From Eunapius fragilis (taxonomy: Eukaryota > Porifera > Demospongiae > Spongillida > Spongillidae), in NCBI GenBank assembly GCA_963681505.1, contig OY811988.1:4644607-4708606 (forward strand): DNA of 64,000 nucleotides, written 5' to 3'. The translations under genes and the position numbers were made by a program. The notes beneath the pieces are model-generated. The model saw only the letters and a program-made list of their open reading frames with translations, was not told the origin of the DNA and did not search any database. Position 1 is the first letter of the stretch. Each line of letters begins with the position of its first letter. Positions 1 through 54,951 of the stretch are shown here, piece after piece.

Positions 1-204
1 ACATCTAATCATCCGTCCAATTAATCTTAACACAGAAACTTAAATACAATCTTGTAAGACAGCAGTGTATTAATAATTGAAAAGAATAACCAGCTAATTA
101 TCAGGTGTTAAAGCCTTAGTGCAATGATTGACTGCACCTTATCTTATTATTATCTTTTGTCATTAATTCATCATAACATACCATCTACCATTATTCTAAT
201 ACAG

Positions 205-291
205 GATGTAAGTACCAACGATGTTAATGCACATCTGTTTAATGCACATCTGTTTAATGCCAAGATGGAAGCATCCGTGAATAAGGAGCAG
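205..291 (+). CDS. Copy A exon 4 (87 nt, 29 codons)
   Basis: The exon follows taatACAG and is followed by GTGAGT; it is 29 codons in phase 0 and begins Asp-Val-Ser-Thr-Asn-Asp-Val. It has an internal repeat (NAHLF twice) and ends VNKEQ. Copies B (23604-23690) and C (49031-49117) have the same length and frame. Its first nine bases, GATGTAAGT, copy the GAT-microexon/donor junction of the downstream arrays, so a 3-nt GAT exon could also be spliced here. Copy C has GTAAGC at this place. Confidence 0.7.
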
Positions 292-22169: not shown

Positions 22170-22241
22170 ATGTTAAAGGAAGTTGCTTTTCTTCTGACCC
22201 TGCTGGTCATGTTCGCTGATGCCCGCCCTCAATCCCGCGAG
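22170..22241 (+). CDS. Copy B exon 1, signal peptide
   Basis: ATG at 22170 opens a 24-codon exon ending before GTATGC. Residues: short basic start (MLKE), hydrophobic core VAFLLTLLVMF, then ADA/RPQSRE, a good signal-peptidase site after Ala-Asp-Ala. Copy C has the same exon with three substitutions. The product is probably secreted or enters the secretory pathway. Confidence 0.75.
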
Positions 22242-25200: not shown

Positions 25201-28200
25201 ATGTTTTAGATTAAAAAAGGGGTAAGTGCCAATGATAAGTGTAAATGTATCTTCTCATGTGTATTGTGCTTTCTTGCTATGGACGCTGTTGTAGGCAAAA
25301 AAGTTGGTAAGAGCATATGATAGAAAATTCCCCAGCATTCACTTGTTCTTTTTCATACAATCATATCTGCCTATTCTTTGTTTCGGTAATGTTTTAGGCT
25401 AAAAAAGTTGTAAGTGCCAATAACAAGTATTAGTGCATCTTCACATGTTCATTGTGCTCTGTTGCTATGGACGCTATTGCAGGCAAAAAAGTTGGTAAGA
25501 GCATATGATAGAAAATTCCCCAGCATTCCCCTGTTCTTTTTCATACAATCATATCTGCCTATTCTTTGTTTCGGTAATGTTTTAGGCTAAAAAAGTTGTA
25601 AGCCAATAATAAGTATTAGTGCATCTTCACATGTTCATTGTGCTCTGTTGCTATGGACGCTATTGTAGGCAAAAAAGTTGGTAAGAGCATATGATAGAAA
25701 ATTCCCCAGCATTTACCTGTTCTTTTTCATACAATCATATCTATTCTTTGTTTCGGTAATGTTTTAGGCTAAAAAAGTTGTAAGTGCCAATGATTAGTAT
25801 TAGTGTATCTTCACATGTTCATTGTGCTCTGTTGCTATGGACGCTGCTGTAGGCAAAAAAGTTGGTAAGAGCATATGATAGAAAATTCCCCAGCCCTCAG
25901 CTATCATATCTGCCTATTCTTTGTTTCGGTAATGTTTTAGGGTAAAAAAGTTGTAAGTGCCAATTATAAGTATTAGTGTATCTTCACATGTTCATTGTGC
26001 TCTGTTGCTATGGACACTGTTGTATGTACAAAGCTGGTAAGAGCCTATAATGTAATACTTTACCAGTGAATTTTGCATGACTACCTGTTCTTTGTCACTA
26101 TGGATACTGTTACAAATGATGCAGAAGGTAGGTGCCAATGATACTACATTCTCCAGTCTATCTGAACATTGACTACCTGTTCTTTGTTACCATGGACGTT
26201 ATTTCTTAAACAATCCAGCGTGTAAGTGCAAATAATGTTACATTCTTCAATGTGAATTTACATGTCTAATTGTTTTTGTTACCACGGATGCTATTATAGA
26301 TAAGGAACCCAGTAAGTACCAATATTATTTATCAATGCAAATTTTTATGTATTAAAATGCAAATTTTTATGTATTTGTTGGGGCACTGTTTAGACAAAAA
26401 AGCTGGTAAGGCCAATGATAAACAGTCCCCTATACAATTGTATCTTTACATGTTTACTATGCTTTATTGTGATTCTACCTGTTCTTTGTCACCATGGATT
26501 CTGTTACAAATAATACAGAAGGTAAGTGCCAATGATATTATATTGTATCTTATCAATGACTACCTGTTCTTTGTTACCATGGACGTTGTTTTTTATGTAA
26601 TCCAGCGTGTAAGTTCAAATAATGTTATATTCTCCAATGTGTATTAACATGTCTACCTGTTTTTGTTACCACGGACACTATTATAGATCAGGAACCCAGT
26701 ACGTACCAATTATAATATATTTCTCAATGAAAATTATTATGTATTTTTTTGGGTACTGTTTAGATAAAAAAGCTGGTAAGGCCAATGATAAACACTCCCC
26801 AATACAAGTTGGATCTTCACATGTTTATTGTGCTTTGTTGTGATTCTACCTATTCGTTTTCGCTATGGATACTGATAAAAATACTACAGAAGGTAATTGC
26901 CAATGATACTAATTCACAAGCTAAACTTAAAATGGCTACCTGTTCTTGTTACCATGGATACTGTTATAAATAATACAGAAAGTAAGTGCCAATGATAGTA
27001 GATTCTAGAGTTAAACTTAAAACGTGGTTACCTGTTCTTTGTTACCATTGATACTGTTGTAAATAATCCAGCCTGTAAGTACAAATGATAATACATTCTA
27101 TTATCATTTCTACCTGTTCTTTGTTTGGGTAATGTTATAGATTAAAAATCTGGTAAGTACCAATGATGAGTACAAATGTATCTTCAAATGTTTATTGTGC
27201 TCTGTTGCTATGGACACCGTTATATGTAAAAAGCAGGTAAGAGCCAAAAATTTTACCTGTGAATTTTGCTGTTCTTTGTCACCATGGATACTGTTACAAA
27301 TAATATAGAAGGTAAGTGCCAATGATACTATATTCTCCAGTCTATCTGAACATTGACTACCTATTCTTTGTTACGATGGATACTGTTACAAATGATACAG
27401 AAGGTAAGTGCCAATGATACTACATTCTCAAGTCTATCTGAACATTGACTACCTGTTCTTTGTTACCATTAACGTTATTTCTTAAACAATCCAGTGTGTA
27501 AGTGCAAATAATGCTACATTCTTCAATGTGTTTTAACATGTCTACGTGTTTTTGTTACCACGGACACTATTATAGATAAGGAAGCCAGTAAGCACCCAAT
27601 GATGTTACGTTTCTTGTTGTTTTCAAACATGGTTACCTGTTCTTTGTTACTGTGGATTTTTATAAATAATATAGCGCGTAAGCTCCATTTCCACAATGTA
27701 CTCTTAACATGCCTGTTACCATGATAATATTGTTGAATTATCCAGCCTGTAAGTACCATTTATAATAGCATGTGATATTACAAACTATGATGATAATATC
27801 ACATATTTCTGTTCTTTTATATGGATAATTAATACAGACGGTAAGTACCAATAATAATGCATTCCCATGAATCATAGCATTGCCACCATTCATTGCTACT
27901 ATTCTTGAATAATGTAGGATGTAAGTATCAGTGATGTAAAACCTCCTATGTGTCTTAACATGGTCATCGGTTCTATGTTACTGCGATGAATGATCCAGCC
28001 TGTAAGTCATATTGATATTGCAATTCCCAATGTAAACATGCCTTCCCCTTATCTTTGTTGTTACATGGGCATTCAGCCTGTAAGTACCAATGATGCTACA
28101 TTCCAAATATACCATAATACTGCCTCCTTCCGTGATACCACTGTTGAATAATGCAGGAGGATGTACGTATCAATGATGTACAATTTCCAATGCATTTTAA

Positions 28201-31200
28201 CATGTCTGTTTGCTCTTTATTACCATGAATACTGTTATTGATAAATGCAGACGGTAAGTACCAAAATTACATGGGTACTACACCACCATGTATTGTATAA
28301 CATCGCCCATGGACAATATCATTAAATTATTCAGGATATAAGTATCAACAATGTAAAATCTCCACTGTATCGTAACATGACTACTAAGTATCTTAACGTG
28401 CATGCCTTTTATTCTACCATGGATACTGTTATGAATAATACAGACAGTATGTGCCAATTGTATTGTTTAATGATCTACATGTAGACTGATTAATTTGATC
28501 CCTAGAATTTATGATATAATATAAGTATTAGCAACAAAGGTTTAGTAAATAAGTGGGTGTGACCATTGAATAATCATACTAATGAGCAACAGTTTTTTTT
28601 GTTTTAATACTTGTGATTACACAAGTAATAAAAACATTCTCTATAGGAGAAGGTTGGTGGTATATAGGAATCAAAGGCGGTGGTGGTGTAAAAGCAAGGA
28701 AACAAGGTTTCTGATTGAAAAGGAAAAATGAAATAGACCTATATTAGCAAGCACATTTATGACAACATGTTGCTAATATAGGTCTATTTCATTATTCCTT
28801 TTCAATCAGAAACCTTGTTCCCTTGCTTTTTAAACCACCATCACCTTTGGTTCCTATGTACCACCAACCTTCTCGTATAGAGAATGTTTTTATTACTTGT
28901 TTCCTAAATTTTTCTGGTGGATTTGGTATTGTGTTTAGTTCTTGAACCGTATAGACCCAGATAGCAAAAACGTCAACTTGTGCGGTCATGACAGATTTAT
29001 TTTTGAATCTGCATTTTTGGGTATACCATTACACTAGTCCCCAGCCTACCTCCAGTGAGGACCATAGGGTGATAAAGGTTAAAAGTACTGGCTAAAGCGA
29101 AGCCATATAATACATAGGATAAATGTACCCTAAGTCTCACGCTTTTAAACCATGCACCGCAATACATTACCAAATTGACGTAAGCAACTTTGGCAGCGCA
29201 TACTATACTATAAGGCGGAGAGAGACGCATTATCTACCGCTGTAACTATTACAGAAACTATTCCTTCCATTTTAGCGATATCTCATAATTTTTGGATTCA
29301 ACGTTTATCGATGCTGTAACGTACCTTTAGGTGGTCGTTTTGTTGGTTCTTTCGGTACGTGCTTGACATGCACTCGTTTGGCAGATCTGGCAGCATCTGC
29401 ATGGATCTTTTCATATTTAGATGCTCGAATGGAATCAGAATTGTCCTATTGCATGCTAAAACCATCGAATTTGATAACGCTGGTTGTTTTATACCGGTGC
29501 GTCATGACCATTGTGATAGCTGATGTAATGTGCTATTTGTAGATCAACACCAAATAAGGAACTACTCGCTTTATTTAAATTGCCCGATCGGTTAGGCGTC
29601 TAACAGACACCCGAAGATAACCTGCCGACTCGTCCTGAAGCGATTGGTACACTTGGCGTGCTTTACAAACGTTCCTGTCGTGAGGTATACTATTGTAAAC
29701 CCCCGAACTACAACCGTTGACGACACACGAGTCTCCAAAATATTTCACAGACGAAAAGGGACACACACCCAACACGCATGCGCAATACATTACATCATTA
29801 TTTGCCCAGCCTATTACATAGCCCTCCCTCATGAAAGATACGTCCTCGTATCGACTTAGTGAGTAACGAAATTCCCGAACCAGTCTGGTTCTTTTCGCTC
29901 TCTAACTGGATACCGTCTCTGTTCTAGAGGGGAAGCTGCATCTTCTTCCAGATCATCTGGTGCAGGAGAACCCTCATTCTCTAGAACTTCTTGAATGTTA
30001 TCAGTCTCCTCAACTTGGCCTGGCAACTGACCCGCATTTTCCATCTCCACATCTCCCCCCTCTGATTTTTCTTCAATCTCTCTGACATGTGGGAGCGGCA
30101 TCTCATCATCCGTATCTTCCTCTGCGTCAGGATTAGCAGGGTATGTATTTGGAATTTGTACACTGACACGTAACTCCTGTGGTGTTGTAGCTGGTTGACT
30201 AACCTTGTGAAGGCGGACATCTGGGTTACAAGGTTTGAGGCGGTCAAAGTGCACAACTTGACGTTGCCTTCTCTTTGCTGTGTGCTGGATCCTGTATGTA
30301 ACATCTGAAAGTTGCTTAATAACCTCAAAAGGTCCTTGCCAAGATCTGTGCAACTTTTTACAGTTGAATCCTTTTTTTCTTGGAACTGCAGGGTTCCACA
30401 GCCACACTAAATCACCTGTGTTGAACCTTTCCCCATGAATCCTTCTATCATAGAATGCTTTCTGCCGTAACTGACTTTGTCCTGTCTTTTCCCGAACTTT
30501 GTCAAACGTTTGACCCATTCTCTTCTGTACTTTGGCGACATATTCACTGTGTGACACGTTTTCCTGCTGTGGTGTTCCACACAAGAGATCCACTGGAAGT
30601 CGGGCCTCGTAACCGTGCATAAGGTAAAACGGCGTATAACCCGTTGAAGCATGCACACTTGTATTGTACGCAAAACAGGCCATCTTTACATGCCTATCCC
30701 AGGTGAAGTGGCAGCCTTCCAACGCAGTAGCCAGGATGTCACACAGTGTCTTATTAAATCTCTCTATCTCTCCGTTGCAAGAAGTATGATATGGTGTAGT
30801 TCTGGTTTTCTGAATACTCATGGTTTTGCACAACTCTGCAATTACATCGGACTCAAACTGTGGTCCCTGGTCTGAATGTAGTTGTTCCGGGAATCCATTT
30901 TGGCAGATGTATTCTTCTACAAGAATTCTCGCTACCGTTTTAGCTTCCTGATTCGGAACAGCATAGGCTGACATATACTTCGTGAAGTGATCTCCAACCA
31001 CCAGGATGTACCGGTTGCCATCTTCAGACTCCACGAGTGGACCAAGAAAATCCATTGCCACAATCTGCAGCGGGGATCCGACCTTAATAGAGGTCAATGG
31101 GGCTCTCCTCTTGGGTGCTGGACCTTTTCTAGCAGCACAATCCCTGCATGTGCGACACCAATTGATTACATCTTTCTGATGACCAGGCCAGTAGAATCTT

Positions 31201-34200
31201 TCTCGTAACCTATGCAATGTCTTATCCTCCCCAAAGTGCCCTCCACATGGACCTTCATGCAACTGCCTTAACACTTCCTCTCTGAGGCTCTTTGGAACGA
31301 TGAGTTGCAATCTGTTAGAAGTTCCATCTTGATTTTCGAACTGCCGATACAGGACCCCTTCCTCCAGCCGTAGTTGCATCCATTGTTGAAACAGGGCCCG
31401 TGTAGCAGAACTGAACCCTTTTGTCTGGCCAACTTCTGGCTGCTTGGCCCCCTCCTTGTGTCGCTTTAAAACTGGTCCAATATCCTTGTCTTGTAACTGC
31501 AAGCTGGAGACATCCATATCTGACACTGCCTCTGGTAATATAATAGGCACCACTGCACTCTCACCTGAGGTGTGCGCTGTACCATCATGTACTGGGCACT
31601 TGCGGTTATTACAAGAAATACGGGACATAGCATCTGCATTGTTATGACTGCGACCCTCTCGGTGTACAATCTCATAGGTGAACTCTTGTAACTTCTCAAT
31701 CCACCTCGCGAGTTGGCCTTCTGGCTCTTTGAAATTATGTAACCACAGAAGTGAGCCATGATCTGTTCTGAGGCGAAAAGGTCTTCCCAACAAGTAGTGA
31801 CGAAATTTATTAGTAAAGACCACAACTGCTAATAACTCTCTCCTAGTTACACAGTAGTTTCGCTCCTCCTTACTGAGCAGCCTACTGTCAAAACAGACAA
31901 CCCTTTCTTTACCATCCTGAATCTGGGATAGAACTGCTCCCAGGCTGTGGTTGCTTGCATCTGTATCTAAGATGAAGGGTTTGGAGCTGTCGGGGTATGC
32001 TAGGATAGGAGATGAAGTGAGTTTTGTCTTTAGAGCACTGAAAGCACTCATGCAATCACTCGTCCACTTGAAGTCGCTTCCTTTTCTGGATAATTCGTGC
32101 AAGGGTTTGGCAACTTCCGCATATCCATGGATGAAGTGTCTGTAGTAGTTTGCCAGACCCAGGAATCCTTGCAACTCTACCAGGCAAGTGGGTGTGGGCC
32201 ATTCAGTAACCACTTTTGATTTCTCCGGGTCCGAAGTCACTCCTTGCTCTGACACTATGTGTCCCAGATAGAGTACTTTCTTCTGGAAAAACCTGCATTT
32301 GTCTGGGTTTAGTGTCAGCCCTGCTGCCTGAAGTCTGGAAAGGACCATGCTCAAATTATCCAGGTGCTCATCAAACGATCGCCCCATGATAATAATATCG
32401 TCGAGGTATACTAGGCAAGATGACCATTGTACTCCCGCTAGTACGACATCCATGAGCCTTTGGAATGTGGCCGGAGCGTTGCATAATCCGAAAGGCATAA
32501 CGTTAAACTCAAAATGACCATCCTGAGTGCAAAATGCGGTCTTCTCCTTATCCTCAGGGCATATCTCAACTTGCCAGTAGCCACTTGCAAGATCCAGAGT
32601 AGTGAACCACTTTGAACCTGCCAATGAGTTGAGCGTATCATCAATCCTTGGCAGCGCATATGCATCTTTACGTGTTAGTGAATTAAGTTTCCGAAAATCC
32701 ACACAGAATCGTAGCGACCCATCCTTCTTTTTCACCAGGACTACAGGAGATGCCCAAGGACTGGAAGATGGCTGAATTATGTTCTTGTCTAGCATATCCT
32801 GTAACACTTTCCTGCTCTCCTCTCGCTGATGGAATGGTGTTCTTCGAGGTCTCTGTCGAACTGGTTGTGCCTCTCTGTGTGAATATGATGTTGTAGTACC
32901 TTTGTCTTTCCTATTTCCTTCTTCTGAGGAAACACTGCCTCGTACTTAACCAGCACATCAAACACCCGCTTTCTCTCTTCTGGACTGAATTCTGCAGCAA
33001 TCCTTTGGGCTATCTCCCAGAGTTTTTCCTCCTTCTCTGGAGTAATCCTTGACTTTGTAGGTTTTGTACAGAAAGGCTCGCCACATTCTTCCATGGTCAA
33101 GGATCCAACAGTCACCCCTTCACTGCTCTTCAGTAGCTCCATCCTAGCTAAAGAGTCTCCACAGTACACCGTTATCGCCTCACAACTGGAATTCATCAGA
33201 CGCACCGGTACTGTTCCATTCTTTGGTATGACTAGAGCATTTGCAACCTGGATCGCCGCCTTCTTGGACATACTTGTCGAGTCTATCAGCCAAGGCCCTT
33301 GCTCCAAATCTCTCCCAACTAGTCCACAAACATCCACTTCATGCAAGGGTGGTATTTTGATGGTATTCCTTAATGTGATACAGGCTGTGGTGTACTTCTT
33401 TACCTGATCACGCTTTGGAGCCTTTCCTTCCAGTGGCAGAGTCATGCCTGGTTTACTCCTGACCACAATTTTCCCCTCAGCAGGGTCCAACACACAACCA
33501 TTCAGTACAATGAAATCCATTCCCAAGAGCGCCTCCATAGGTAATCCTTCCACAACAATCACTGGATGTGTGAACTCTCCATTCCCAAGTCTAATTGATG
33601 CCACCTTCATTCCTACAACTCTCATGGGATGCCCAGATGCATCAATAAGCTTTTCCGTTCCTCCCCATGCATCCAGCTCTCCACCTTCCGATTCCTCCCA
33701 CACATCTCTCCGCACAACAGACACGTCCGCTCCTGTATCTACTAAAAAACTGACGGGTACATTCGCCAGATAGCCTTGGATAAAACAATTTCCAGGACCT
33801 TTACTGGGAATTGTCAGCACTCGACTCCTTCCATTACCGGGTACCTCACATACCTGTCTAGCCCCCCCTATGACTCTGTAAGGGTAATCAGAACGCTCAT
33901 CTTTTGACATGACCTCATTAAATATATTAGTCCTACAGTTCCTAGCAATGTGGCCATGCCGCCCGCACTTAAAGCAACCTTCTCTTTTTGTGGCTCGACC
34001 ACTGCGTGCTGATTCTAGTTGCCGCAGGCGATTTTCATGTTCACTCAGTGAGCTCTTCATACTTGCAAAACTAAGCTCTTGGGAGGCTTTAAGACCCGCT
34101 ATCCCTTCAGCTAGCGTCTGAATGCTCTTGGCTAGGTCTGTTCCCTGTGAAGGTAGCCCCCTCTCAACATTAACAGGAGCACTCACGTGGACGGTTCGTC

Positions 34201-36889
34201 TGTGCACAGCCTGGTTGATGCATTCTAGCCTGATTGCCTCTTGTACCGCTTCATCAAGTGTTTTAGGCCCACTCCTACGAACTCCTATTGCGAGATCACT
34301 GTCCTCTTCAAGTAGCACGAGAAATCGGGACATGGCAAACCCACTGGCCAGATCCTCTGATTCTGGGTTTGCTCGTGTAGCGAGCTCCTTCAAGTTCTCT
34401 GCCACGGAGGCCCAGTCCTCTCCTTTTTTCCTTTGGTAGGCCCACAGCTTCTCCTGGTATACTAGCCTCTTCGCCTCTGGTTCAAACCTACGAGTTAGGG
34501 CTTCGACAGTTGTCTCGAAGTTTTTTCGAGTGTCTGGATCCAGCGTTTCTAGCGTCAGAGCTGCTTGTCCCGTCAGTTTACAGTCCAGCCAAATTTGTTG
34601 TTCCGCTTCGTCCCAATCATACATCGCCGCGAGCCCTTTAAACTTTCGGAACCATGTGTGCCAGTCCCCAGCACCGGAGTACTCGGACGGCTGCGCGACC
34701 GGACCACGCTTCTTTACGTTCCCGGTATTCGGAGTGTCTTGCGATGCCATATCCTGCCGACTACGCCAATGTAAACCCCCGAACTACAACCGTTGACGAC
34801 ACACGAGTCTCCAAAATATTTCACAGACGAAAAGGGACACACACCCAACACGCATGCGCAATACATTACATCATTATTTGCCCAGCCTATTACACTATCC
34901 CGAAGGAAGAAAAAAGACGACGGAGGAGAAATTTTAGGTGGGACTGGGTACGGACGATGGGGACGAGTATTTTTGTTCTCTAAAAGTACACCGTCTTATG
35001 ACACAAATACAGCGCGGAACTGTTCTCCTTTTTGATATCGCTCGATTGCCACTAAGAGCGAAGTGACCCGATTCTTAAATGTCCCGCTAGACGTGAGTGA
35101 CGTTTTTATAATGACATTCATGATACTGCAGGATTCCTATATGGGACCTACTCGCGATACAAACAGAAAATTAAATTAAATTAATAAAGACGAGGCCAAA
35201 TGAAAAATGTTCAGTGGACCTTTGCCTCTGCAAAGGCCAAAGCTATAGAATGGTGTTGTGAGTAGGAATGAAATGACCTGGTTCCTCGAAGGCACATGAT
35301 AGCTGAGCGGATTAATGAAAAACTTAGTTTGCATAGCAACCAAGAAAGAGTGGTAGACCTCTTGCCTTTAATGAATGATGCTATACTCTTGTACACTGCC
35401 AATTGTATTATACATTCCCCAATGTATCTTTAACATTAACATCTCTACCTGTTTCTTGTTACAACCATTTTATTTCTACCATGGATACTGCTATGACAAT
35501 ACAGACGGTAAGTGCCAATTGTATTACATTCCCCAGTGTATCTTTAACATGTCTACCTGCTTTTTGTTACGATGGACATAATTGTTAAATATTCCAGCCT
35601 GTAAGTACAATTGATATTACACTCCATAATGCATCTTTAATATGCATATGCTCTTTGTTACCATGGATATAATAAAGCCTGTAAGTACAAATGATATTAC
35701 GTGTGGCATTACATATGTATATATTCCTGTTCTTTGTTACCATGGATACTCATACGAATAATACAGCAGGTATGCACCAATGATAATACATTCCCAATGT
35801 ATCGTAACATTGCCACCTTTTGTTGCTACCATTGTCGACAAATTCAGGATGTAAGTATCGATGATGTACAACATCCAGTGTATATTACTATGGCTGCATG
35901 TTCATTGTTACCATGGATATAATACAGGCCGTAAGTACGAATATTCCCAATGTATCATAACACATTGCCCTTTGTATGGTATAACGCAGGAGGTAAGTAT
36001 CAATGATGTACTATCTCCAATACATGTCTATCTGTTCTTTGCTACCATGGATACTGTTATTAATAATCAGACGGTATGTACCAAATATTAATATTTCATC
36101 CCAATGCCTCCTTTCCTTTCTAACATGGACATTACCATTGACTAACACAGAATGTAAGTATAAATGATGTACAATCTTCAATGTATCTTGACATGGCCAC
36201 CTGTTACCATGGATACTGTGATGAATAATCCAGCCTGTAAGTACCAGTGATGTTACATATAATATTACATAATACATCATAACATTGCCATCCTTTGTTG
36301 CTACCATTGATGAATATCTCAGAGTGTAAGTCTAAATCATACTAATCAATCAATGATATTTCATCCCCAATGCATCATAACGTTGCCACCTTTCCTTGCT
36401 ACCATTGCAGGATGTAAGTATCAATAATATACCAACTTCAATGTAGTATAATATGGCTATTTATTCTTTTTTACCATGGTTACTGTGATGCATTCTCCAA
36501 CGTATCTAACATGGCTACCTGTTCTTTGTTACCATGGACATCAATGATAAATAATCCAGCCTGTAAGTACCAATGATATTACATTCTCCAATGTATCTTT
36601 ACATTTCCACCTTTCCTTCCTACCTTGGACATCTTGTTGAACATTGTTCAATATCTCACATGCCCCGATGCCCTTTTTATTCGGCCAACTATTTTGAACA
36701 ATGCAGTATAACTTGGTAAACTATAAAGATCCATTGTGTTACATTAATAATATCATTTTTGCATGTTCTAATAATGCTATTTAGAATCTCATGACTTCAA
36801 AAGTGACTGTAAGTTAATGTGACATGTACATGTATAATACTGCGGTTCTAAACCATTTTTATGGACTACATTTCTAACAGGAAAACTAA
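22170..36889 (+). CDS. Microexon gene copy B, interrupted by large insertions
   Basis: Complete in exon order but enlarged by insertions: a Helitron-like element in intron 3 (22776-23449) and a 6.9-kb composite insertion in a late microexon intron (28465-35396). About 71 candidate exons: signal peptide, exons 2-4, the 24-nt exon, a long Lys-rich block dominated by AKKL and AKKV exons, and an acidic block in two parts around the insertion. The donor after the GAT exon at 28334 is mutated (ATAAGT), and the TCT and GAT exons that follow it in A and C are deleted. Both insertions lie in introns, so a transcript could still be made. Whether B is active or decaying cannot be told. Confidence 0.6.
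22300..22493 (+). CDS. Copy B exons 2 (22300-22378) and 3 (22450-22493)
   Basis: Exon 2 (79 nt) follows aataaCAG and ends in phase 1 before GTAAGA; exon 3 (44 nt) follows attcttAG and restores phase 0. Residues begin KRTMSDEVEMRGQDTA and end AKNAGRLESK. Lengths and phases equal those of copy C. The donor of exon 3 lies in a perfect palindrome, GTTAGAATTCTAAC. Confidence 0.7.
22776..23449 (+). mobile_element. Helitron-like hairpin element, copy 3, inside intron 3 of gene B
   Basis: The element starts TCAGGAACTG after an A (22775) and ends CTTG before a T (23450). Copies A (around 20) and C (around 48835) are uninterrupted at this point (tccaattaatctt), so the insertion lies exactly between A and T with no target duplication. 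The 3' half is the foldback hairpin. The 5' part is a shortened version of the copy 1 body with the gcgac/gtcgc motifs. Confidence 0.65.
23604..23913 (+). CDS. Copy B exon 4 (23604-23690), GGT (23833) and 24-nt exon (23890-23913)
   Basis: Exon 4 has 29 codons starting GVSTNDVNAHLF and ending VNKEQ, before GTGAGT. A GGT exon (23833-23835) and a 24-nt exon TKALVNVQ (before GTGCGT) follow as in copies A and C. Lengths and phases are unchanged despite substitutions. Confidence 0.7.
24023..27587 (+). CDS. Copy B cationic microexon block
   Basis: Candidate exons by first base: APFL 24023; weak single codons 24128, 24224, 24325; P 24407; LKL 24475-24483; V 24564; LKKL 24657; V 24742; LKKL 24836; VKTL 24920; IKKG 25023; VKTL 25107; IKKG 25210; AKKL 25295; AKKV 25398; AKKL 25483; AKKV 25586; AKKL 25669; AKKV 25768; AKKL 25853; GKKV 25941; weak L 26034; K 26125; R 26219; IRNP 26300; TKKL 26394; K 26519; R 26606; IRNP 26687; IKKL 26764; K 26890; K 26979; P 27072; IKNL 27141; weak Q 27234; K 27309; K 27401; C 27495; IRKP 27576-27587. 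AKKL/AKKV pairs repeat every 184-188 bp. This block is far more Ala-rich than in A or C. Confidence 0.6.
27675..28446 (+). CDS. Copy B acidic microexon block, first part
   Basis: Exons: R 27675, P 27746, T 27838, D 27918, P 27999, P 28077, ED 28157-28162, T 28251, D 28334 (donor mutated to ATAAGT), T 28444. The order equals copy C from 50765 to 51669, except that the S and D exons are deleted near 28385. The array is then cut by the insertion at 28465. Confidence 0.6.
28622..28900. repeat. Foldback hairpin related to the Helitron-like family
   Basis: Perfect terminal inverted bases acaagtaataaaaacattct and nearly perfect arms of about 130 bp, including aataggtctatttcatt, separated by a loop of about 20 nt. 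A half copy is at 37545-37625. Confidence 0.85.
29694..29818 (-). repeat. 3' LTR of the Ty3/gypsy element
   Basis: 125 bp, TGTAATAGGC at its 5' end and GGGTTTACA at its 3' end on the minus strand; same sequence as 34770-34894. Confidence 0.95.
29856..32807 (-). CDS. pol: Ty3/gypsy pol: reverse transcriptase, RNase H, integrase
   Basis: 983 codons counted from the first Met; pol-like residues continue upstream in this frame to about 32872, so that Met is not the true beginning. Reverse transcriptase: first catalytic Asp at 72 (LDLASGYWQ), YLDD at 134-137. RNase H: D283, E324, D349 and NADAMSR near 391. Integrase: zinc finger H517, H524, C554, C557, then catalytic D586, D646 and E682 (D,D35E). 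A GPF motif at 825-827 marks a GPY/F domain. The C-terminal tail is acidic and lacks a chromodomain. The frame is open throughout with all catalytic residues present, but it is offset from gag-protease. Confidence 0.95.
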   Translation of the reverse strand: MLQDMLDKNIIQPSSSPWASPVVLVKKKDGSLRFCVDFRKLNSLTRKDAYALPRIDDTLNSLAGSKWFTTLDLASGYWQVEICPEDKEKTAFCTQDGHFEFNVMPFGLCNAPATFQRLMDVVLAGVQWSSCLVYLDDIIIMGRSFDEHLDNLSMVLSRLQAAGLTLNPDKCRFFQKKVLYLGHIVSEQGVTSDPEKSKVVTEWPTPTCLVELQGFLGLANYYRHFIHGYAEVAKPLHELSRKGSDFKWTSDCMSAFSALKTKLTSSPILAYPDSSKPFILDTDASNHSLGAVLSQIQDGKERVVCFDSRLLSKEERNYCVTRRELLAVVVFTNKFRHYLLGRPFRLRTDHGSLLWLHNFKEPEGQLARWIEKLQEFTYEIVHREGRSHNNADAMSRISCNNRKCPVHDGTAHTSGESAVVPIILPEAVSDMDVSSLQLQDKDIGPVLKRHKEGAKQPEVGQTKGFSSATRALFQQWMQLRLEEGVLYRQFENQDGTSNRLQLIVPKSLREEVLRQLHEGPCGGHFGEDKTLHRLRERFYWPGHQKDVINWCRTCRDCAARKGPAPKRRAPLTSIKVGSPLQIVAMDFLGPLVESEDGNRYILVVGDHFTKYMSAYAVPNQEAKTVARILVEEYICQNGFPEQLHSDQGPQFESDVIAELCKTMSIQKTRTTPYHTSCNGEIERFNKTLCDILATALEGCHFTWDRHVKMACFAYNTSVHASTGYTPFYLMHGYEARLPVDLLCGTPQQENVSHSEYVAKVQKRMGQTFDKVREKTGQSQLRQKAFYDRRIHGERFNTGDLVWLWNPAVPRKKGFNCKKLHRSWQGPFEVIKQLSDVTYRIQHTAKRRQRQVVHFDRLKPCNPDVRLHKVSQPATTPQELRVSVQIPNTYPANPDAEEDTDDEMPLPHVREIEEKSEGGDVEMENAGQLPGQVEETDNIQEVLENEGSPAPDDLEEDAASPLEQRRYPVRERKEPDWFGNFVTH
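32789..34750 (-). CDS. gag: Ty3/gypsy gag and aspartic protease
   Basis: 653 codons from ATG at 34750. Residues about 20-190 form a retrotransposon Gag region, followed by a zinc knuckle (C259, C262, H267, C272; CX2CX4HX4C) and an aspartic protease with DTGA at 338-341 and LLGMDF near 408-413. The frame passes into non-pol residues for its last 25 or so codons and stops inside the start of pol. The break lies at a dinucleotide run (32871-32880, CACAGAGAG on the minus strand). It could be a slippage mutation or a site of programmed frameshifting. Confidence 0.9.
   Translation of the reverse strand: MASQDTPNTGNVKKRGPVAQPSEYSGAGDWHTWFRKFKGLAAMYDWDEAEQQIWLDCKLTGQAALTLETLDPDTRKNFETTVEALTRRFEPEAKRLVYQEKLWAYQRKKGEDWASVAENLKELATRANPESEDLASGFAMSRFLVLLEEDSDLAIGVRRSGPKTLDEAVQEAIRLECINQAVHRRTVHVSAPVNVERGLPSQGTDLAKSIQTLAEGIAGLKASQELSFASMKSSLSEHENRLRQLESARSGRATKREGCFKCGRHGHIARNCRTNIFNEVMSKDERSDYPYRVIGGARQVCEVPGNGRSRVLTIPSKGPGNCFIQGYLANVPVSFLVDTGADVSVVRRDVWEESEGGELDAWGGTEKLIDASGHPMRVVGMKVASIRLGNGEFTHPVIVVEGLPMEALLGMDFIVLNGCVLDPAEGKIVVRSKPGMTLPLEGKAPKRDQVKKYTTACITLRNTIKIPPLHEVDVCGLVGRDLEQGPWLIDSTSMSKKAAIQVANALVIPKNGTVPVRLMNSSCEAITVYCGDSLARMELLKSSEGVTVGSLTMEECGEPFCTKPTKSRITPEKEEKLWEIAQRIAAEFSPEERKRVFDVLVKYEAVFPQKKEIGKTKVLQHHIHTERHNQFDRDLEEHHSISERRAGKCYRIC
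34751..34768 (-). promoter_or_regulatory. Primer-binding site of the Ty3/gypsy element
   Basis: Directly after the 5' LTR (one intervening T), the minus strand reads TGGCGTAGTCGGCAGGAT. TGG is complementary to a tRNA CCA end. The gag ATG follows without any gap. The tRNA could not be identified from memory. Confidence 0.65.
34770..34894 (-). repeat. 5' LTR of the Ty3/gypsy element
   Basis: 125 bp, same sequence as 29694-29818; contains the promoter for the minus-strand transcript by family analogy. Confidence 0.95.
35505..36715 (+). CDS. Copy B acidic microexon block, second part
   Basis: After the insertion the array resumes: T 35505, P 35598, P 35678, Q 35767 (donor GTATGC), D 35848, A 35928, E 35990, T 36071, N 36151, P 36234, S 36323, D 36411, P 36560, then the 9-nt exon YNL 36707-36715. 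Relative to C, several exons near the insertion (P, T, ED, D) are missing. E for D at 35990, N for D at 36151 and S for N at 36323 are single-codon substitutions. Confidence 0.6.
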
Positions 36890-48179: not shown

Positions 48180-48251
48180 ATGTTAAAGGAAATTGCTCTT
48201 CTTCTGACCCTGCTGGTCATGTTCGCTGATGCCCGCCCTCAATCCCATGAG
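48180..48251 (+). CDS. Copy C exon 1, signal peptide
   Basis: 24 codons from ATG (48180) to GAG before GTATGC. Core IALLLTLLVMF, then ADA/RPQSHE. ATG context is aggATG. Equivalent to 22170-22241. Confidence 0.75.
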
Positions 48252-51200
48252 GTATGCAACCATCGCGGAGGTATTACATGTATGCAAAATTAATAATAAT
48301 ACAATACAGCAGAAGACGATGAGCGATGAGGTTGAAATGAGGGAGCAGGACACTGCCCTACTGGCTAACAGCGAGGACGTTCTAAACGGTAATAGAGTTA
48401 GAAAGCATATTCCTTACTGGCGTTAAATACATATTGATACCCTGATTTTAATATTCTTAGATGAGATAGCCAACGCAAAGAATGCTGGACGCTTGGAGTC
48501 AAAGGTTAGAATTCTAACGATCTGCTTTTCTATATCATACACTTGAAACCCCATTGTGTTGCTTTAGCCTCTAGTTGTTTTGCGCAAAAGCGATAAAACG
48601 CGCAAAATCAATTATTGATTCGCCATGCTGCAGCATGATGCTGATTGAACGATTGATTTGAATAAAAATTCTTTAGAAATCAATAACTGATTGATTCAGA
48701 GTTGGCTTTTCGTTGTGCGATTGATAGCTAATCGAATGCCACATAACGATATTATGAAACTGATGAATGAGTTGTATTATTGTTGAATACATAACACCCA
48801 TTACAAACTGGTTGTACATCTAATCATCCGTCCAATTAATCTTAACACAGAAACTATTTAGAACTTAAAAACAATTCTGTAAGGCAGCTGTATATTAATA
48901 ATTTCAAAGGATAACCAGCGTATTATTAGGTGTTAAAGCCTTAGTGCAATGATTGACTGCACCTTATCTTACTTATTATCCTTTGTCATTAATGCATCAT
49001 AACATACCTGCTACCATTATTCTAATACAGGATGTAAGCACCAACGATGTTAATGCACATCTGTTTAATGCACATCTGTTTAATGCCAAGATGGAAGCAT
49101 CCGTGAATAAGGAGCAGGTGAGTTTCAAATTCATGGTGCTGCTTCAAAAGCATTTCAGGATTTCATTTCTCAACATGCTACGCATGGCTTTCAATTCACT
49201 ACGACGACGGACCTTTAACATTCATACTGTTCCGTGTTACCATGGATACAAATAATGCAGGGTGTAAGTATCAATGATGTTGCATCCCCCATGACAATGT
49301 GTTCTTAATTTCTAAGAAGGAAGCATTGGTGAATGCGCAGGTGGGTTTGTACTTCAGCGTTTCATGTTTGTCTGTTCTCACTGCCATAATGATGGGTCCT
49401 AAAATGCCCATTGTTCATTTTTACCATGGAAATTGGTGTTGAATAATCCAGTTTGTAAGTACCAATAATATTACATTCCACAATGTATATTATCATCATG
49501 TCTACCTGCTCATTGTTTGGGCACTGTTTTTAGTTTAAAAAGCTGGTAAGTGCCAATGATATAACGCTCCCCGGTACAACTGTATCTTCACATGTTTATT
49601 GTGCTTTGTTGTGATGGACACTGTTATAGGTAAAAAAGTGGGTAAGAGCCTATTTTATAAAATTCCCCAGCATATCTTGCATGGTTACCTGTTCTTGTCA
49701 CCATGGATACTGTTATAAATAATACAGAAGGTAAGTGCAAATGATATTACATTCTTAACATGGCTACCTGTTCTTTGTTACCATGGATACTGTTGTAAAT
49801 AATGCAGAAGGTAAGTGCCAATGATATTACATTCTCGTGTTTAACCTAACATGGCTATCTGTTCTTTGTTACTATGGATACTGTTGTAAATAATCCAGCC
49901 TGTAAGTACCAATGATAATACATTCCGCAATGTATATTATCATCTGGTCATTGTTTGGGCACTGTTTTAGTTTAAAAAGCTGGTAAGTGCCAATGATATA
50001 ACGCTCCCCAATACAACTGTATCTTCACATGTTTATTGTGCTTTGTTGCGATGGACACTGTTATAGGTAAAAAAGTGGGTAAGAGCCTATGATATAAAAT
50101 TCCCCAGCATATCTTGCATGGTTACCTGTTCTTTGTCACCATGGATACTGTTATAAATAATACAGAAGGTAAGTGCCAATCATATTACATTCTAGAGTTA
50201 AACTTAACATGGCTATCCGTTCTTTGTTACCATGGATACTGTTGTAAATAATGCAGCCTGTAAGTACCTATGATAATACATTTGCCAGTGTATATTGTCA
50301 TATCTACCTGTTCTTTGTTTGGGTAATGTTTTAGATTAAAAAACTGGTAAGTGCCAATGATAAGTACAAGTGTATCTTCACATGTTTCTTGTACTTTGTT
50401 GCTATGGACACTGTTATATGTAAAAAGCTGGTAAGAGCCTATTATACAATGAATTTTGCATGGCTACCTGTCCTTTGTACCATGGATACTGTTACAAATA
50501 ATACAGAAGGTAAGTGCCAATGATATTATACTCTCCAGTGTATCTTAACAATGATTACCTGTTCTTTGTTACCATGGACGTTGTGTTTTATATAATCCAG
50601 CGTGTAAGTGCAAATAATGTTCCATTCTTCAATGTGCACTAACATGTCTAATTGTTTTTGTTACCACGGACACTATTATAGATAAGGAAGCCAGTAAGTA
50701 CCCAATGATGTTACATTTCCCAGTGTTTACCTGTTCTTTGTTACTGTGGATATTTTTAATATAGCGCGTAAGTTCCATTTCCCCAATGTACTCTTAACAT
50801 GCCTGTTACCATGGACAATATTGTTGAATAATCCAGCCTGTAAGTACCAATTATATTACATGTGATATTACAAACTATGATGATAATATCACAAATTTCT
50901 GTTCTTTTATATGGATGTTAATTAATACAGACGGTAAGTACCAATAATAATGCATTCCCATGCATCGTAGTATTGCCACCATTCATTGCTACCATTCTTG
51001 AATAACGTAGGATGTAAGTATCAGTGATGTACAACCTCCAATGTGTCTTAACATGGTCACCGGTTCTATGTTACTGCGATGAATAATCCAGCCTGTAAGT
51101 CATGTTGATATTACAATTCCCAATGTAAACATGCCTGCCCCTTCTTTGTTGTCCCATGTCCATTCAGCCTGTAAGTACCAATGATATTACATTCCAAAGC

Positions 51201-53736
51201 TACCATAACACTGCCTCCTTCCGTGCTACCATTTTTGAATAATGCAGGAGGATGTACGTTTCAATGATGTACAATTTCCAATGCATTTTAACATGTCTGT
51301 TTGCTCTTTATTACTACTGTTATGGATAAATGCAGACGGTAAGTACCAAATTACCACGGGTACTACACCACCATGTATTGTATAACATCGCCCATGGACA
51401 CTATCACTAAATAATTCAGGATGTAAGTATCAACAATGTAAAATCTCCACTGTACCGTAACATGACTACTGTTCTTTGTTACTACGTATACCTTTCGGAA
51501 TAATACAGTCTGTAAGTACCACATTGTACACCCCCAATGTATTGTAACGTTGCCACCTTCCTTGCTAACCATTGTTGATTAATGCAGGATGTAAGTATCA
51601 ATGATGTAAAGTATCTTAACATGCATGCTTTTCATTCTACCACGGATACTGTTATGAATAATACAGACGGTAAGTGTCAATTGTATTATGCATTCCCCAA
51701 TGTATCTTTAACATTAACATCTCTGCCTGTTTCTTGTTACCATGGACATTATTTTTGAATAATCCAGCCTGTAAGTACCAATGATATTGCATAGGGCATT
51801 ACATATGATTACATTTTCTTTTTCTTTGTTACCATGGATAATCTTATGAATAATACAGACGGTATGTACGAAGGATGTTACATTCCCAATCTATTATAGT
51901 ATTGCCACCCTTCCTTGCTACCTTGTTGAATAATGCAGGAGGATGTAAGTATCTATGATGTACAATCTCCAATGTATTATTAACATGTCTATTTGCTCTT
52001 ATTACCATGAATACTGTTATGAACTGCCACCATCTCCAATGTATTGTAACATTGCCACCTTTCCTGCTATCATGGGCATTATTGTTGAATAATGCAGGAT
52101 GTAAGTATCAATGATACCAATTTATCGTAAACATGGCTAACTGTTCTATGTTAACACGGATACTGTTATGAATAATACAGACGGTAAGCGCCAATTGTAT
52201 TACATTCCCCAACGTATCTGTAACATGTCGACCTGTTTTTTGTTACCATGGACATAATTGTTGAATATTCCAGCCTGTAAGTACAATTGATAATACATTC
52301 CCTAATGCATCTTTAATATGCCTACCTGCTCTTTGTTACCATGGATATTATTGTTGAATAATAAAGCCTGTAAGTACAAATGATATTACGTGTGGCATTA
52401 CATATGACGATTATATATTCCTGTTCTTTGTTACCATGGATATTCATACGAATAATACAGCAGGTAAGCACCAATGATAATACATTCCCAATGTATCGTA
52501 ACATTGCCACCTTTCCTTGCTAAAATTGTTGACAAATTCAGGATGTAAGTATCGATGATGTACAACCTCCAGTGTATATTACTATGGCTGCATGTTCATT
52601 GTTACCATGGATATAATACAGGCGGTAAGTACGAATAATATTACATTCCCAATGTATCATAACACATTGCCCTTTGTATGGAATAACGCAGGACGTAAGT
52701 ATCAATGATGTACAATCTCCAATATATGTCTATCTGTTCTTTGCTACCATGGATACTGTTATTAATAATCAGACGGTATGTACCAAATATACCAATGATA
52801 TTTAATCCCCAATGCCTCCTTTCCTTTCTACCATGGACTAATCCATTGATTAACACAGGATGTAAGTATAAATGATGTACAATCTTCAATGTATCTTGAC
52901 ATGGCCACCTGTTTTTTTGTTACCATGGATACTGTGATGAATAATCCAGCCTGTAAGTACCAATGATATTACATTCCCCAATGTATCTTACCTGTCATTG
53001 TTACATGGGTATTATTGTTGAATAATCCAGCCAGTAAGTACCAGTGATGTATTCCATATTTTGATCATATATTACATAATACATTCCAAATGTATCATAT
53101 GATTGCCATCTTTCGTTGCTACCATTGATGAATAATTCAGAATGTAAGTCTAAATCATACAATTCCCAGTACCAAATCTGCCAATGATATTTCCTCCCCA
53201 ATGTATCATAACCTTGCCACCTTTCCTTGCTACCATTGTTGAATAAATGCAGGATGTAAGTATCAATAATATACAAACTCCAATGTAATTTAATATGGCT
53301 ATTTATTCTTTGTTACCATGGTTACTGTGATGAAAATTTACATTCCGCAACGTATCTAACATGGCTACCTGCTCTTTGTTACCATGGGCATCATTTATAC
53401 TTACATCCTGTGTTATTTAATGGATTAGCCTGTAAGTACCAATTAGATTCTCCAATGTATCTTTACATTGTCACCTTTCCTTGCTACGTTGGACATCTTT
53501 TTGAATATTGTTCAATGTCTCACATTCCCCAATGCCCTTTTTATATGGCCTACTATTTTGAACAATGCAGGATAATTTGGTAAACTATACAGATCCATTG
53601 TGTTACTTTTTTGCATGTTCTGATATACTATTTAGAATTTCATGACTCCAAAAGTGACTGTAAGTTAAAGTGACATGTACATGTATAATAATGCGGTTTT
53701 TCTAAACCATTTTTATGGACTACACAGGAAAACTAA
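48180..53736 (+). CDS. Microexon gene copy C, complete, about 53 exons and 173 residues
   Basis: The clearest member of the family. Full inclusion of the exons given in the following entries joins 522 nt of coding sequence (173 residues and stop) from 5.56 kb. Exons 1-4 supply a signal peptide and 70 residues; the remaining 79 residues come from about 49 exons, most with one codon. All junctions after exon 3 are phase 0, so any exon can be skipped without changing the frame. Introns are 53 to about 175 nt, mostly 75-100. The predicted product has a basic Lys-rich middle and an acidic Pro/Thr/Asp tail. The organisation resembles schistosome micro-exon genes (signal peptide plus symmetric microexons), but no sequence relation to them is claimed. 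Role unknown; antimicrobial, biomineral-binding or peptide-precursor functions are possible. Confidence 0.7.
48310..48504 (+). CDS. Copy C exons 2 (48310-48388) and 3 (48461-48504)
   Basis: Exon 2 begins QKTMSDEVEMREQDTA and ends LANSEDVLN in phase 1. Exon 3 completes an Asp codon and reads EIANAKNAGRLESK. If the intron between them is retained, the frame ends after GNRVRKHIPYWR, giving a short alternative product. A second acceptor three bases into exon 2 (CAGCAG) could remove one Gln. Confidence 0.7.
49031..49117 (+). CDS. Copy C exon 4 (87 nt)
   Basis: Same 29 codons as copy A (begins DVSTNDV, ends VNKEQ), between aatACAG and GTGAGT. The intron before it (48505-49030) corresponds to the start of the window in copy A and holds the Helitron-like insertion in copy B. 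Confidence 0.72.
49261..49340 (+). CDS. Copy C exons GGT (49261) and 24-nt exon (49317-49340)
   Basis: One-codon Gly exon, 53-nt intron, then KEALVNAQ between tttctaAG and GTGGGT. The 53-nt intron is the shortest in the gene and close to the lower limit for spliceosomal introns. Confidence 0.65.
49452..50693 (+). CDS. Copy C cationic microexon block
   Basis: Exons by first base: F 49452; FKKL 49534-49545; VKKW 49630-49641; K 49728; K 49808; P 49899; FKKL 49971-49982; VKKW 50067-50078; K 50166; P 50257; IKKL 50335-50346; weak L 50428; K 50507; R 50601; IRKP 50682-50693. The FKKL/VKKW/K/P set is repeated with a period of about 437 bp. The four-codon exons follow gttttAG or gttatAG and precede GTAAGT/GTAAGA. 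The unit before 50428 has lost its AG (tatat), leaving only a three-base exon option. Confidence 0.62.
50765..53579 (+). CDS. Copy C acidic microexon block
   Basis: Exons by first base: R 50765, P 50837, T 50931, D 51011, P 51092, P 51168, ED 51247-51252, T 51336, D 51420, S 51509, D 51588, T 51667, P 51768, T 51859, ED 51939-51944, D 52098, T 52181, P 52274, P 52367, Q 52461, D 52542, A 52622, D 52692, T 52773, D 52859, P 52950, P 53031, N 53141, D 53253, P 53429, DNL 53571-53579. Donors are GTAAGT in nearly all, GTACGT at 51253, GTATGT at 51862 and 52776. The codons CCT, ACG and GAT dominate and recur in the same order in copies A and B. Confidence 0.62.
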
Positions 53737-53890
53737 GGAGGACACAAATGGTGCAGCTGCTGTACTTGAGTATTGACTATATAGATTTTGTTGCACTTTG
53801 AATAGGTCTTACATATGAATATTCATTTTCTTTCTGCTTTTATTGTGCTAGAGAATACATGAATGCATCAATAACTGAACGTTACCTTTT
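53728..53890 (+). CDS. Copy C terminal exon and 3' UTR
   Basis: GAA AAC TAA after gactacACAG; stop ends at 53736. The UTR matches A and B up to catcaataactgaacg near 53880. Confidence 0.65.
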
Positions 53891-54118: not shown

Positions 54119-54951
54119 ACTTTAATTAATTGAATTCAAGATTGCGACCGCCTTTTTTAAATGTTCAAATCATGTTTAAATCTATAGTGAAAACCAGCTA
54201 TCATTGCTACCGCCTTTTTTTGCTACGATGGCTGCATTACCTGTTCCCGCTCTGGCTCCTGCTATGATTCCCACTCCGGATCTCCACGACTTCAAGTGGG
54301 GACTACGTTATTCAATACGAACTACAGTTTCAGCTGGGGATCGTAGGAGAACACACACCATAGTCGACTGGAAGAACTTTTGTAGGGATATTTGCTTGGA
54401 GTACTTTATTAGGAATCCAGTCGTCTGTGAGAAGTGTGCAGGAAGTACAACGTAGGACATCTAGTTAGAGAGCAATCGCAACGAAAGTAGGATTCATGGT
54501 TCCAGTCGATCGCAGAGATGCAGCAACTCTTCTTCCAATCATACAACAGTACATCGCACCTGGAACTACTATAATCTCGGACCTCTGGGCGGCATACAAC
54601 ACAATAGGAACACTCGGATACCAGCATCTCACCGTTAATCACAGTTTAAACTTTGTAGATCCAACCACAGGAGCATGCACCACTAATCACATAGAAAGCG
54701 TATGGCAAAAAGCTAAGCAGAAACATAAACAGCGATACGGGACACATAGGGAACTTTTACACATGCATTTAGCGGAATTTATGTGGAGACAAAGATTTGG
54801 ATATTGCTTTCATGACTTTGTAGCACATGTTAGGGGCAGTTTATCCAGTGTAGGTTTATTCGTATGTATTGTGTTCATGATACCGAAAATGTTATGATAT
54901 CGTAAATCGAATAATTAAAGGGGGGGGGGGGGGGGGAACTGCATAAGTGCC
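54066..54951 (+). mobile_element. Merlin (IS1016-like) DNA transposon, defective
   Basis: Terminal inverted repeats GGCACTTATGCAGTTCCCC at both ends run into poly-C (54088-54104) and poly-G (54920-54936). The 8-bp target duplication is gcctatac (54058-54065) and gcctgtac (54952-54959), one mismatch. The spacer behind gene A (about 7590-7605) shows the uninterrupted site. 8-bp duplications and the transposase type are Merlin traits. Confidence 0.9.
54229..54897 (+). pseudogene. Merlin transposase (DDE_Tnp_IS1595 type), internally deleted
   Basis: The first frame ends IVDWKNFCRDICLEYFIRNP plus a few residues and a stop. The second, from 54496, reads MVPVDRRDAATLLPIIQQ, GTTIISDLWAAYNTI, then TTNHIESVWQKAKQKHK and FMWRQRFG. 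These are the ISXO2/IS1595-type landmarks with the second Asp (SD) and the HIE...W region. The segment with the first catalytic Asp should lie between the two frames and is missing, so the enzyme is inactive. Confidence 0.85.

Follow-up and report, generated by a model that had tools for sequence, protein, structure and literature searches.

Can a tandem array of short repeats encode a protein in which most residues are given an exon of their own? This question is raised by a 64,000-nucleotide stretch of the genome of the freshwater sponge Eunapius fragilis (the window; part of contig C18, OY811988.1), which contains repeats that look like satellite DNA. The original prediction had read positions 48180 to 53736 as a gene built from about 50 microexons in phase 0. 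Splicing of very short exons is difficult, and exons of 3 nt are rare. Judged on the sequence, the array is very probably coding, and the locus appears to belong to an extensive gene family of freshwater sponges that evolves fast and encodes secreted peptide precursors, with mostly one residue per exon. The genome searched consists of 218,937,333 bases in 24 contigs; the published assembly is described as having 23 chromosomes, a longest scaffold of 24.99 Mb and a mitogenome of 28.5 kb (PMC12616128).

The gene at 48180 (copy C) starts with the ATG at that position and ends with an in-frame TAA at 53736, both as had been claimed. Its array consists of repeat units about 70-100 bp long; in each, a short insert lies between a conserved acceptor and a GTAAGT-like donor. 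The introns have a median length of 88 nt and the cassettes of about 91 bp resemble their neighbours. For the motif AGNNNGTAAGT, the window has 112 occurrences where 2.0 are expected and shuffles give no more than 6; 110 of the 112 are on the + strand. With exon length left free between 1 and 24 nt, a chaining script gave 45 exons in copy C and no stop: 42 of 3 nt (the first of these is the start of exon 4), two of 6 and one of 12. Counting the weak unit at 51168 and the 9-nt exon at 53571, the array comes to about 46 in-frame microexons. The predicted phase-0 array stands with a somewhat lower count; four CTG or TGG units are better read as 12-nt exons (FKKL or VKKW) and one CCA unit as IRKP, and an 87-nt exon 4 is added. 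Three tandem copies had been proposed, and A, B and C indeed share the plan, but A begins outside the window, B is interrupted and dozens of loci exist.

Some units carry AAAAAG before the last codon, and for these the better acceptor is a TAG after a pyrimidine tract. In copies A to C, a C/TAG is located no more than 40 nt from the donor in 26 of 33 such units, resulting in an exon of 12 nt in 23 of them, and of 15, 9 and 0 nt in one each. Apparent exons of 2 and 4 nt in A and B were rejected as artefacts of a matrix that favours AATNCAG; a TAG further 5' gives 12, 15 or 9 nt.

The length of the insert provides the first line of evidence. The count of AGNNNGTAAGT, the spectrum of [CT]AG-N(L)-GTAAG and the genome-wide gap and stop searches are all free of training on 3-nt units. 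In the spectrum, which is model-free and covers L = 0-30, the coding-strand maximum is at L = 3 in 21 of 27 partly overlapping loci; the peak is not clear at L003, L004, L010, L011, L015 and L023. For the genome-wide gap test, the flanks were fixed as AATGCAG on the 5' side and the 13-nt GTAAGTATCAATG on the 3' side. Of 336 places with these flanks, 329 have exactly 3 nt between them and 335 a multiple of 3. The search for gaps of 4-20 nt gave the other seven, which measure 4 nt once, 6 nt twice, 9 nt three times and 12 nt once. Gaps of 0-2 nt between these flanks were not found anywhere in the genome, and the reversed flank pattern returned 0 each time. As an intron control, 7- and 10-nt flanks were applied at 21 places in the fetched units, giving 52 length deviants among 2177, 39 of which are not multiples of three, and the codon gap with flanks of these lengths is 3 nt in 221 of 221. 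The difference between the seven genome-wide codon-gap deviants and the 52 intron deviants is significant (Fisher p = 0.003). With much shorter flanks in the fetched loci, 401 of 421 codon gaps measure 3 nt and eleven another multiple of 3.

Chaining was applied to 27 stretches, from which L015 (no array peak) and L001-L008 (overlapping others) had been left out. Omitting C18B (copy B, with a poor chain), L010, L011 and L023 leaves 23 stretches, in which 512 of 546 chained exons are 3 nt long, with matrices trained on 3-nt units; earlier matrix chains gave 328 of 368 and 457 of 504. Nine of ten chained 7-nt exons are the stop-bearing exon AAATRAG or AATTAAG (L016-L020, L022-L024 and L033). The 7-nt exon of L032 was rejected, being a 3-nt TAC with a misplaced donor.

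The second line of evidence is the absence of stops. Among the 329 genome-wide triplets there is no TAA, TAG or TGA; TRR matched at just three of them, each time as TGG. Likewise, no stop is present among the 512 3-nt units of the 23 stretches, which take in the first codon of exon 4 and the four copy C units better read as 12-nt exons. Shuffling letters within each locus by codon position, which keeps the bias for T at the third base, gave a mean of 11.5 stops and a minimum of 2 in 20000 shuffles.

The codon is also the most variable part of the unit in the fetched loci, and the donor is among the least variable. Where a stretch has 8 units or more, within-locus diversity averages 0.70, 0.67 and 0.46 at the first, second and third codon positions; it falls to 0.00-0.06 at donor +1 to +5 and, apart from the AG, is about 0.1-0.5 in most of the remaining places. 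Loci differ in residue usage, with a chi-square of 762 where shuffles reach at most 562. Copies A and C, when compared, show no gap in any of the 45 chained exons, 43 of which are called in A too; their divergence is 3.1% at donor positions +1 to +8 and 8.0% in introns (p = 1.5e-4). The donor is GTAAGT in 438 of 512 units and is complementary to ACTTAC, which is located at the 5' end in all three U1 copies that were read of the 13 found. The phase-0 reading is supported by the gap lengths, the missing stops, the variable codons beside near-invariant donors and a predicted product that makes sense.

These observations bear directly on the view that the array is a satellite or tandem repeat with splice-site-like motifs that arose by chance. 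The units are clearly homologous tandem repeats, so a constant 3-nt spacing could by itself be inherited and meaningless. Such a repeat is not expected to concentrate its variation in the three bases between the sites while keeping all 329 triplets free of stops, nor to have 6, 9 or 12 nt in six of its seven long gaps. In addition, arrays on many chromosomes lie behind a signal-peptide exon, and residue types differ among loci. A satellite without coding meaning was rejected on the frame, stop and codon-variability tests, and this view as a whole is considered highly improbable.

The arrays belong to a family that is spread over the genome. A 68-residue precursor query gave 68 matches, 56 of which are a putative signal-peptide exon, hydrophobic and starting with Met; the weakest matches of this query have E above 1 and may be due to chance. 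Signal-exon matches were located on C1, C3, C5, C6, C7, C11, C12, C13, C18, C19, C20, C21 and C22. In 23 of 24 fetched loci, four or more 3-nt units are arrayed behind the signal exon; L023 consists of a signal exon, one unit and a stop exon, with hardly any array. Counterparts of exon 2 are present in many loci. A similar 3' untranslated region (UTR) exon is found behind those Lys-stop exons that were looked at, and a GGACAC..ATGG-like motif of the terminal exon and 3' UTR recurs at loci on C6, C12 and C21. Five precursors searched against Pfam-A had no match above the cut-off, and a read-through array unit used as a protein query matched only itself. On C12, two mirror-image arrays (G000:C12:3126346-3127792 and 3138455-3139901) carry, among the matches listed, identical 13 codons in the same order, therefore pointing to a recent inverted duplication. 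At G000:C20:2128269-2154221, arrays are present on both strands and are, among the units listed, similar but not identical.

Gene models from another sponge were also found. Named matches to the precursor protein queries are all from Ephydatia, including models of Ephydatia muelleri, which also contain a counterpart of exon 2. Several E. muelleri models splice exons 1, 2 and 3 together as predicted for E. fragilis. Five continue from exon 3 into one array codon (F, H, P, I or K) and then into VSI, reading ..SLTFQ-F-VSINDVA, ..SLTFQ-H-VSINDIA, ..VTLQ-P-VSIRNVA, ..VKPQ-I-VSIHDVT and ..VKPQ-K-VSITNVM. VSI is the translation of GTAAGTATC, and therefore the five models show differing codons before the same donor. 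The models are annotation, the K and I models look like two versions of one gene, and other models (P0001, P0003 and P0008) diverge elsewhere. The precursor is present in the models found and none of them runs through the whole array.

That the models stop short of the full array would fit arrays that are transcribed and mostly skipped, or that serve as stepping stones for recursive splicing, leaving few or no array codons in the mRNA. AG-NNN-GTAAGT indeed looks like a ratchet point, and some units have no acceptor. A ratchet point, however, requires neither a frame nor the absence of stops, and gaps of 0-2 nt are missing between the fixed flanks. This explanation is regarded as no more probable than the satellite.

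Several observations weigh against a coding array. The evidence for it consists of DNA sequence and gene models. Since training used 3-nt units, the 3-nt peaks of the matrix chains do not count as independent evidence. One genome-wide codon gap is 4 nt long; among the 421 short-flank gaps, 9 would break the frame, five of them being 7 nt long like the stop exon; and some arrays have double-length gaps at decayed units. The third-base T bias of 68%, which the shuffles keep, makes stops less likely. At 21 fixed intron offsets, triplets contain 0-15 stops per 512, two offsets having none; low counts are thus also seen where the sequence is merely conserved, and the codon itself is not conserved. 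Between A and C, neither the constraint on the acceptor side (6.5%, p = 0.18) nor the higher rate of change in the first two codon positions (13%, p = 0.07) is significant, and codon change in this comparison gives no support for positive selection. Every repeat had been predicted to carry an acceptor, and the plan is conserved, but 7 of the 33 AAAAAG-type units have no C/TAG within 40 nt; these seven are probably skipped. The joined codons give an odd number of Cys residues in 7 of 23 stretches, and the helical moment of the whole 35-residue cationic stretch of copy C is 0.38 (p = 0.06). Copy B is split at 29.9-34.8 kb by presumed retroelement open reading frames (ORFs), and array units start again at 35.5 kb.

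The retroelement ORFs, the decayed units and the nearly array-free L023 would also suit arrays that were once coding and are now mostly decaying remnants. This is the least probable of the explanations, as exon 4 is open in A, B and C, donors are constrained, the 329 triplets have no stop and the termini match.

If the array is coding, a route for its expression can be proposed. The conserved 5' exons would encode a signal peptide and an acidic propeptide, the conserved 3' end would provide the stop and 3' UTR, and the mature peptide in between would be specified mostly by one residue per 3-nt phase-0 exon. U2AF and U1 could not both occupy sites that are 3 nt apart, and therefore the introns would leave in order, from 5' to 3'. 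With each reaction, the upstream exon would gain one codon and the next strong GTAAGT donor would be freed. Tandem duplication or loss of a cassette would add or remove one residue with the frame kept, and single-base changes would swap residues. The cassettes may have originated from an exon like exon 4, when an internal donor made most of it intronic, or the change may have gone in the reverse direction: exon 4 starts with GAT/GTAAGC ACC AAC GAT GTT AAT GCA, compared with NNN/GTAAGT ATC AAT GAT GTT GCA in an array unit. With this opening, a 3-nt form of exon 4 is possible. A more speculative proposal, possible though not favoured, is that the locus is a residue-by-residue assembly line, which would produce many peptides per gene through skipping of single codons and would evolve by frame-safe unequal crossing-over of cassettes.

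The joined product of copy C is predicted to be GFFKKLVKKWKKPFKKLVKKWKPIKKLKRIRKPRP followed by TDPPEDTDSDTPTEDDTPPQDADTDPPNDPDNLEN, a Lys-rich, largely amphipathic part with a net charge of +18 and then an acidic tail of -14. Over the 26 residues FFKK...IKKL, to which eleven exons contribute, the helical hydrophobic moment at 100 degrees reaches 0.66, compared with an average of 0.22 in shuffles (p = 0.0005). By joined codons, the peptide types are cationic-amphipathic plus acidic (the window copy), Pro/Arg-rich, Gly/Arg-rich and Cys-rich. Predicted mature peptides, with residues missing wherever a unit was not called, are LRRRPRPRPDPLRRLLPPLLPPIRGK (L020), GKGGKRGGPRGGGPRGPKIGGGGK (L016) and CDPGCPGCICSWRGK (L025) on C21, CSKQPRLCTRPCSIVTIVPHSYVKLCC (L048) on C22 and CTTLPPGPLLTCKRCIGILTKLGPTVRQCC (L047) on C19. 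Cysteine pairing was not supported in the 23 stretches. From composition alone, these would probably be peptides of host defence or chemical ecology.

It is also conceivable, although unlikely, that the genes are coding as described and that the products are signalling peptides or matrix components. Of the ten stop exons called, five come directly after a Gly codon and encode Lys before the stop (L016, L018, L019, L020 and L025), as in amidated signalling peptides, the others giving Q-K, Q-K, C-K, R-K and G-N, and Tyr-Leu-Pro-Pro and Gly-Arg repeats are possibly structural. The search for an amidating enzyme, however, gave only weak and partial matches to one Pfam domain, PF03712 (best E 1.6e-5), and the variety within the genome, with cationic, Pro/Arg-rich and Cys-rich types, suits defence or offence better.

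Precursors of this plan are familiar from conotoxin-like and antimicrobial peptides, in which a conserved signal and propeptide precede a hypervariable Cys-rich or cationic mature peptide with C-terminal Gly-Lys. There, the mature peptide is within one or a few exons, whereas in the sponge it would be spread over many. Aphid bicycle genes encode secreted, highly divergent proteins from many tiny symmetric exons, which are larger and of another phase; the many tiny symmetric exons are shared, and the lineage is unrelated. We know of no other gene in which most residues of the product have exons of their own; the ingredients of this layout are known.

The comparison with schistosome micro-exon genes (MEGs) made in the original prediction is a fair analogy. 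According to a review, MEGs have a signal peptide and mainly short symmetric exons of up to 36 bp that can be removed in frame, are secreted and multi-copy, and are restricted to schistosomes (PMC8293314). As far as that description goes, the sponge genes are similar in their putative N-terminal signal exon, in having most coding exons symmetric and no longer than 36 bp, and in forming a multi-copy family; unlike MEGs, their exons are mostly single codons, dozens in the longest genes, within look-alike intron cassettes, and they belong to another phylum. Single exons of 3 nt, for example in Drosophila homothorax, and plant exons of 1 nt are on record, and a plant VPS55 microexon has conserved GTRAGT donors (PMC7392893, PMC8831610); two adjacent plant microexons are a validated example in the latter (PMC8831610). 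The sponge exons share with these a length of one codon or less; the isolated microexons described there are lone and in ordinary genes, while most of the sponge mature peptide would be built from them. No report of a gene built of one-codon exons was found in a literature search that left subscription papers and bioRxiv mostly uncovered, and nothing relevant on microexons of Spongilla or Ephydatia was found in a search that likewise left much literature uncovered.

The genome thus appears to splice tens of consecutive single-codon exons in many genes. Such genes would make a natural test bed for three questions: how U1 and U2 factors act at overlapping sites, how splicing is ordered and how introns serve as a substrate of protein evolution. 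Standard annotation would miss this peptide repertoire, as the E. muelleri models carry the precursor and none the whole array, and similar arrays in other genomes may hide as satellite DNA.

Table 1. Exons and related features of copies A, B and C (window positions; a single number is the first base of an exon).
Feature	Position	Strand	Content
Exon 1 (C)	48180-48251, 72 nt	+	ATG 48180; putative signal peptide MLKEIALLLTLLVMFADARPQSHE; phase 0 at end; paralogues exist
Exon 2 (C)	48310-48388, 79 nt	+	acidic propeptide QKTMSDEVEMREQDTALLANSEDVLN plus first base of following codon; start 3 or 6 nt further 3' possible
Exon 3 (C)	48461-48504, 44 nt	+	(D)EIANAKNAGRLESK; phase 0 regained; homologous exon at other loci
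Exon 4 (C)	49031-49117, 87 nt	+	DVSTNDVNAHLFNAHLFNAKMEASVNKEQ; open in A, B and C
Tandem repeat in exon 4	49050-49086 (C), 224-260 (A), 23623-23659 (B)		15 bp, in frame
Microexons (C)	49261-49454	+	GGT (G) 49261-49263; TTT (F) 49452-49454
Cationic block, 12-nt exons (C)	49534-50346	+	FKKL 49534-49545, VKKW 49630-49641, FKKL 49971-49982, VKKW 50067-50078, IKKL 50335-50346
Cationic block, 3-nt exons (C)	49534-50346	+	AAG 49728, AAG 49808, CCT 49899, AAG 50166, CCT 50257
Microexons (C)	50507-50839	+	AAG 50507, CGT 50601, CCA 50691 (or 12-nt IRKP 50682-50693, read from sequence, counterpart seen in B), CGC 50765, CCT 50837
Acidic block, first half (C)	50931-51669 (whole block)	+	ACG 50931, GAT 51011, CCT 51092, CCT 51168 (weak acceptor, absent from chain), GAGGAT 51248 (6 nt)
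Acidic block, second half (C)	50931-51669 (whole block)	+	ACG 51336, GAT 51420, TCT 51509, GAT 51588, ACG 51667
Microexons, first part (C)	51768-52694 (both parts)	+	CCT 51768, ACG 51859, GAGGAT 51939 (6 nt), GAT 52098, ACG 52181, CCT 52274
Microexons, second part (C)	51768-52694 (both parts)	+	CCT 52367, CAG 52461, GAT 52542, GCG 52622, GAC 52692
Microexons (C)	52773-53431	+	ACG 52773 (weak), GAT 52859, CCT 52950, CCA 53031, AAT 53141, GAT 53253, CCT 53429
Penultimate exon (C)	53571-53579, 9 nt	+	GATAATTTG (DNL), donor GTAAAC; counterpart DNV in A, YNL in B
Terminal exon (C)	53728-53880	+	GAA AAC TAA 53728-53736, then 3' UTR; 3' end as estimated in the original prediction
Copy A	1-7293	+	ATG at C18:4643982, upstream of window
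Copy A, parts	205-291; 7131-7139; 7285-7293	+	exon 4, then array; penultimate exon; terminal GACAACTAA
Copy B, 5' part	22170-28259	+	signal exon ATG 22170; exon 4 23604-23690; array
Copy B, 3' part	35503-36889	+	array; penultimate exon 36707-36715; terminal GAAAACTAA 36881-36889

The tandem repeat within exon 4 encodes HLFNA (once YLFNA in B) and is retained in all three copies. Inside the array of copy B, two long ORFs are located at 29856-34750 on the - strand, which we take, from their motifs, to be a Ty3/Gypsy-like retroelement. Just 3' of copy C, an ORF at 54496-54894 (+) matches the ISXO2-like transposase domain PF12762 (E 1.1e-16). The U1 copies L038, L040 and L042, read in forward orientation, start with TAACTTACC; the canonical U1 5' end is ATACTTACC. 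Pairing of donor positions +7 and +8 to U1, expected from the canonical end, does not fit the TAACTTACC start, which leaves pairing at +1 to +6. Contig C24, of 28,504 bases, is a mitogenome whose COX1, in genetic code 4, we judge to be demosponge-like. Several COX1-like fragments with stops are located on a nuclear contig (C9:9623953-9676564) and are likely nuclear copies of mitochondrial DNA.

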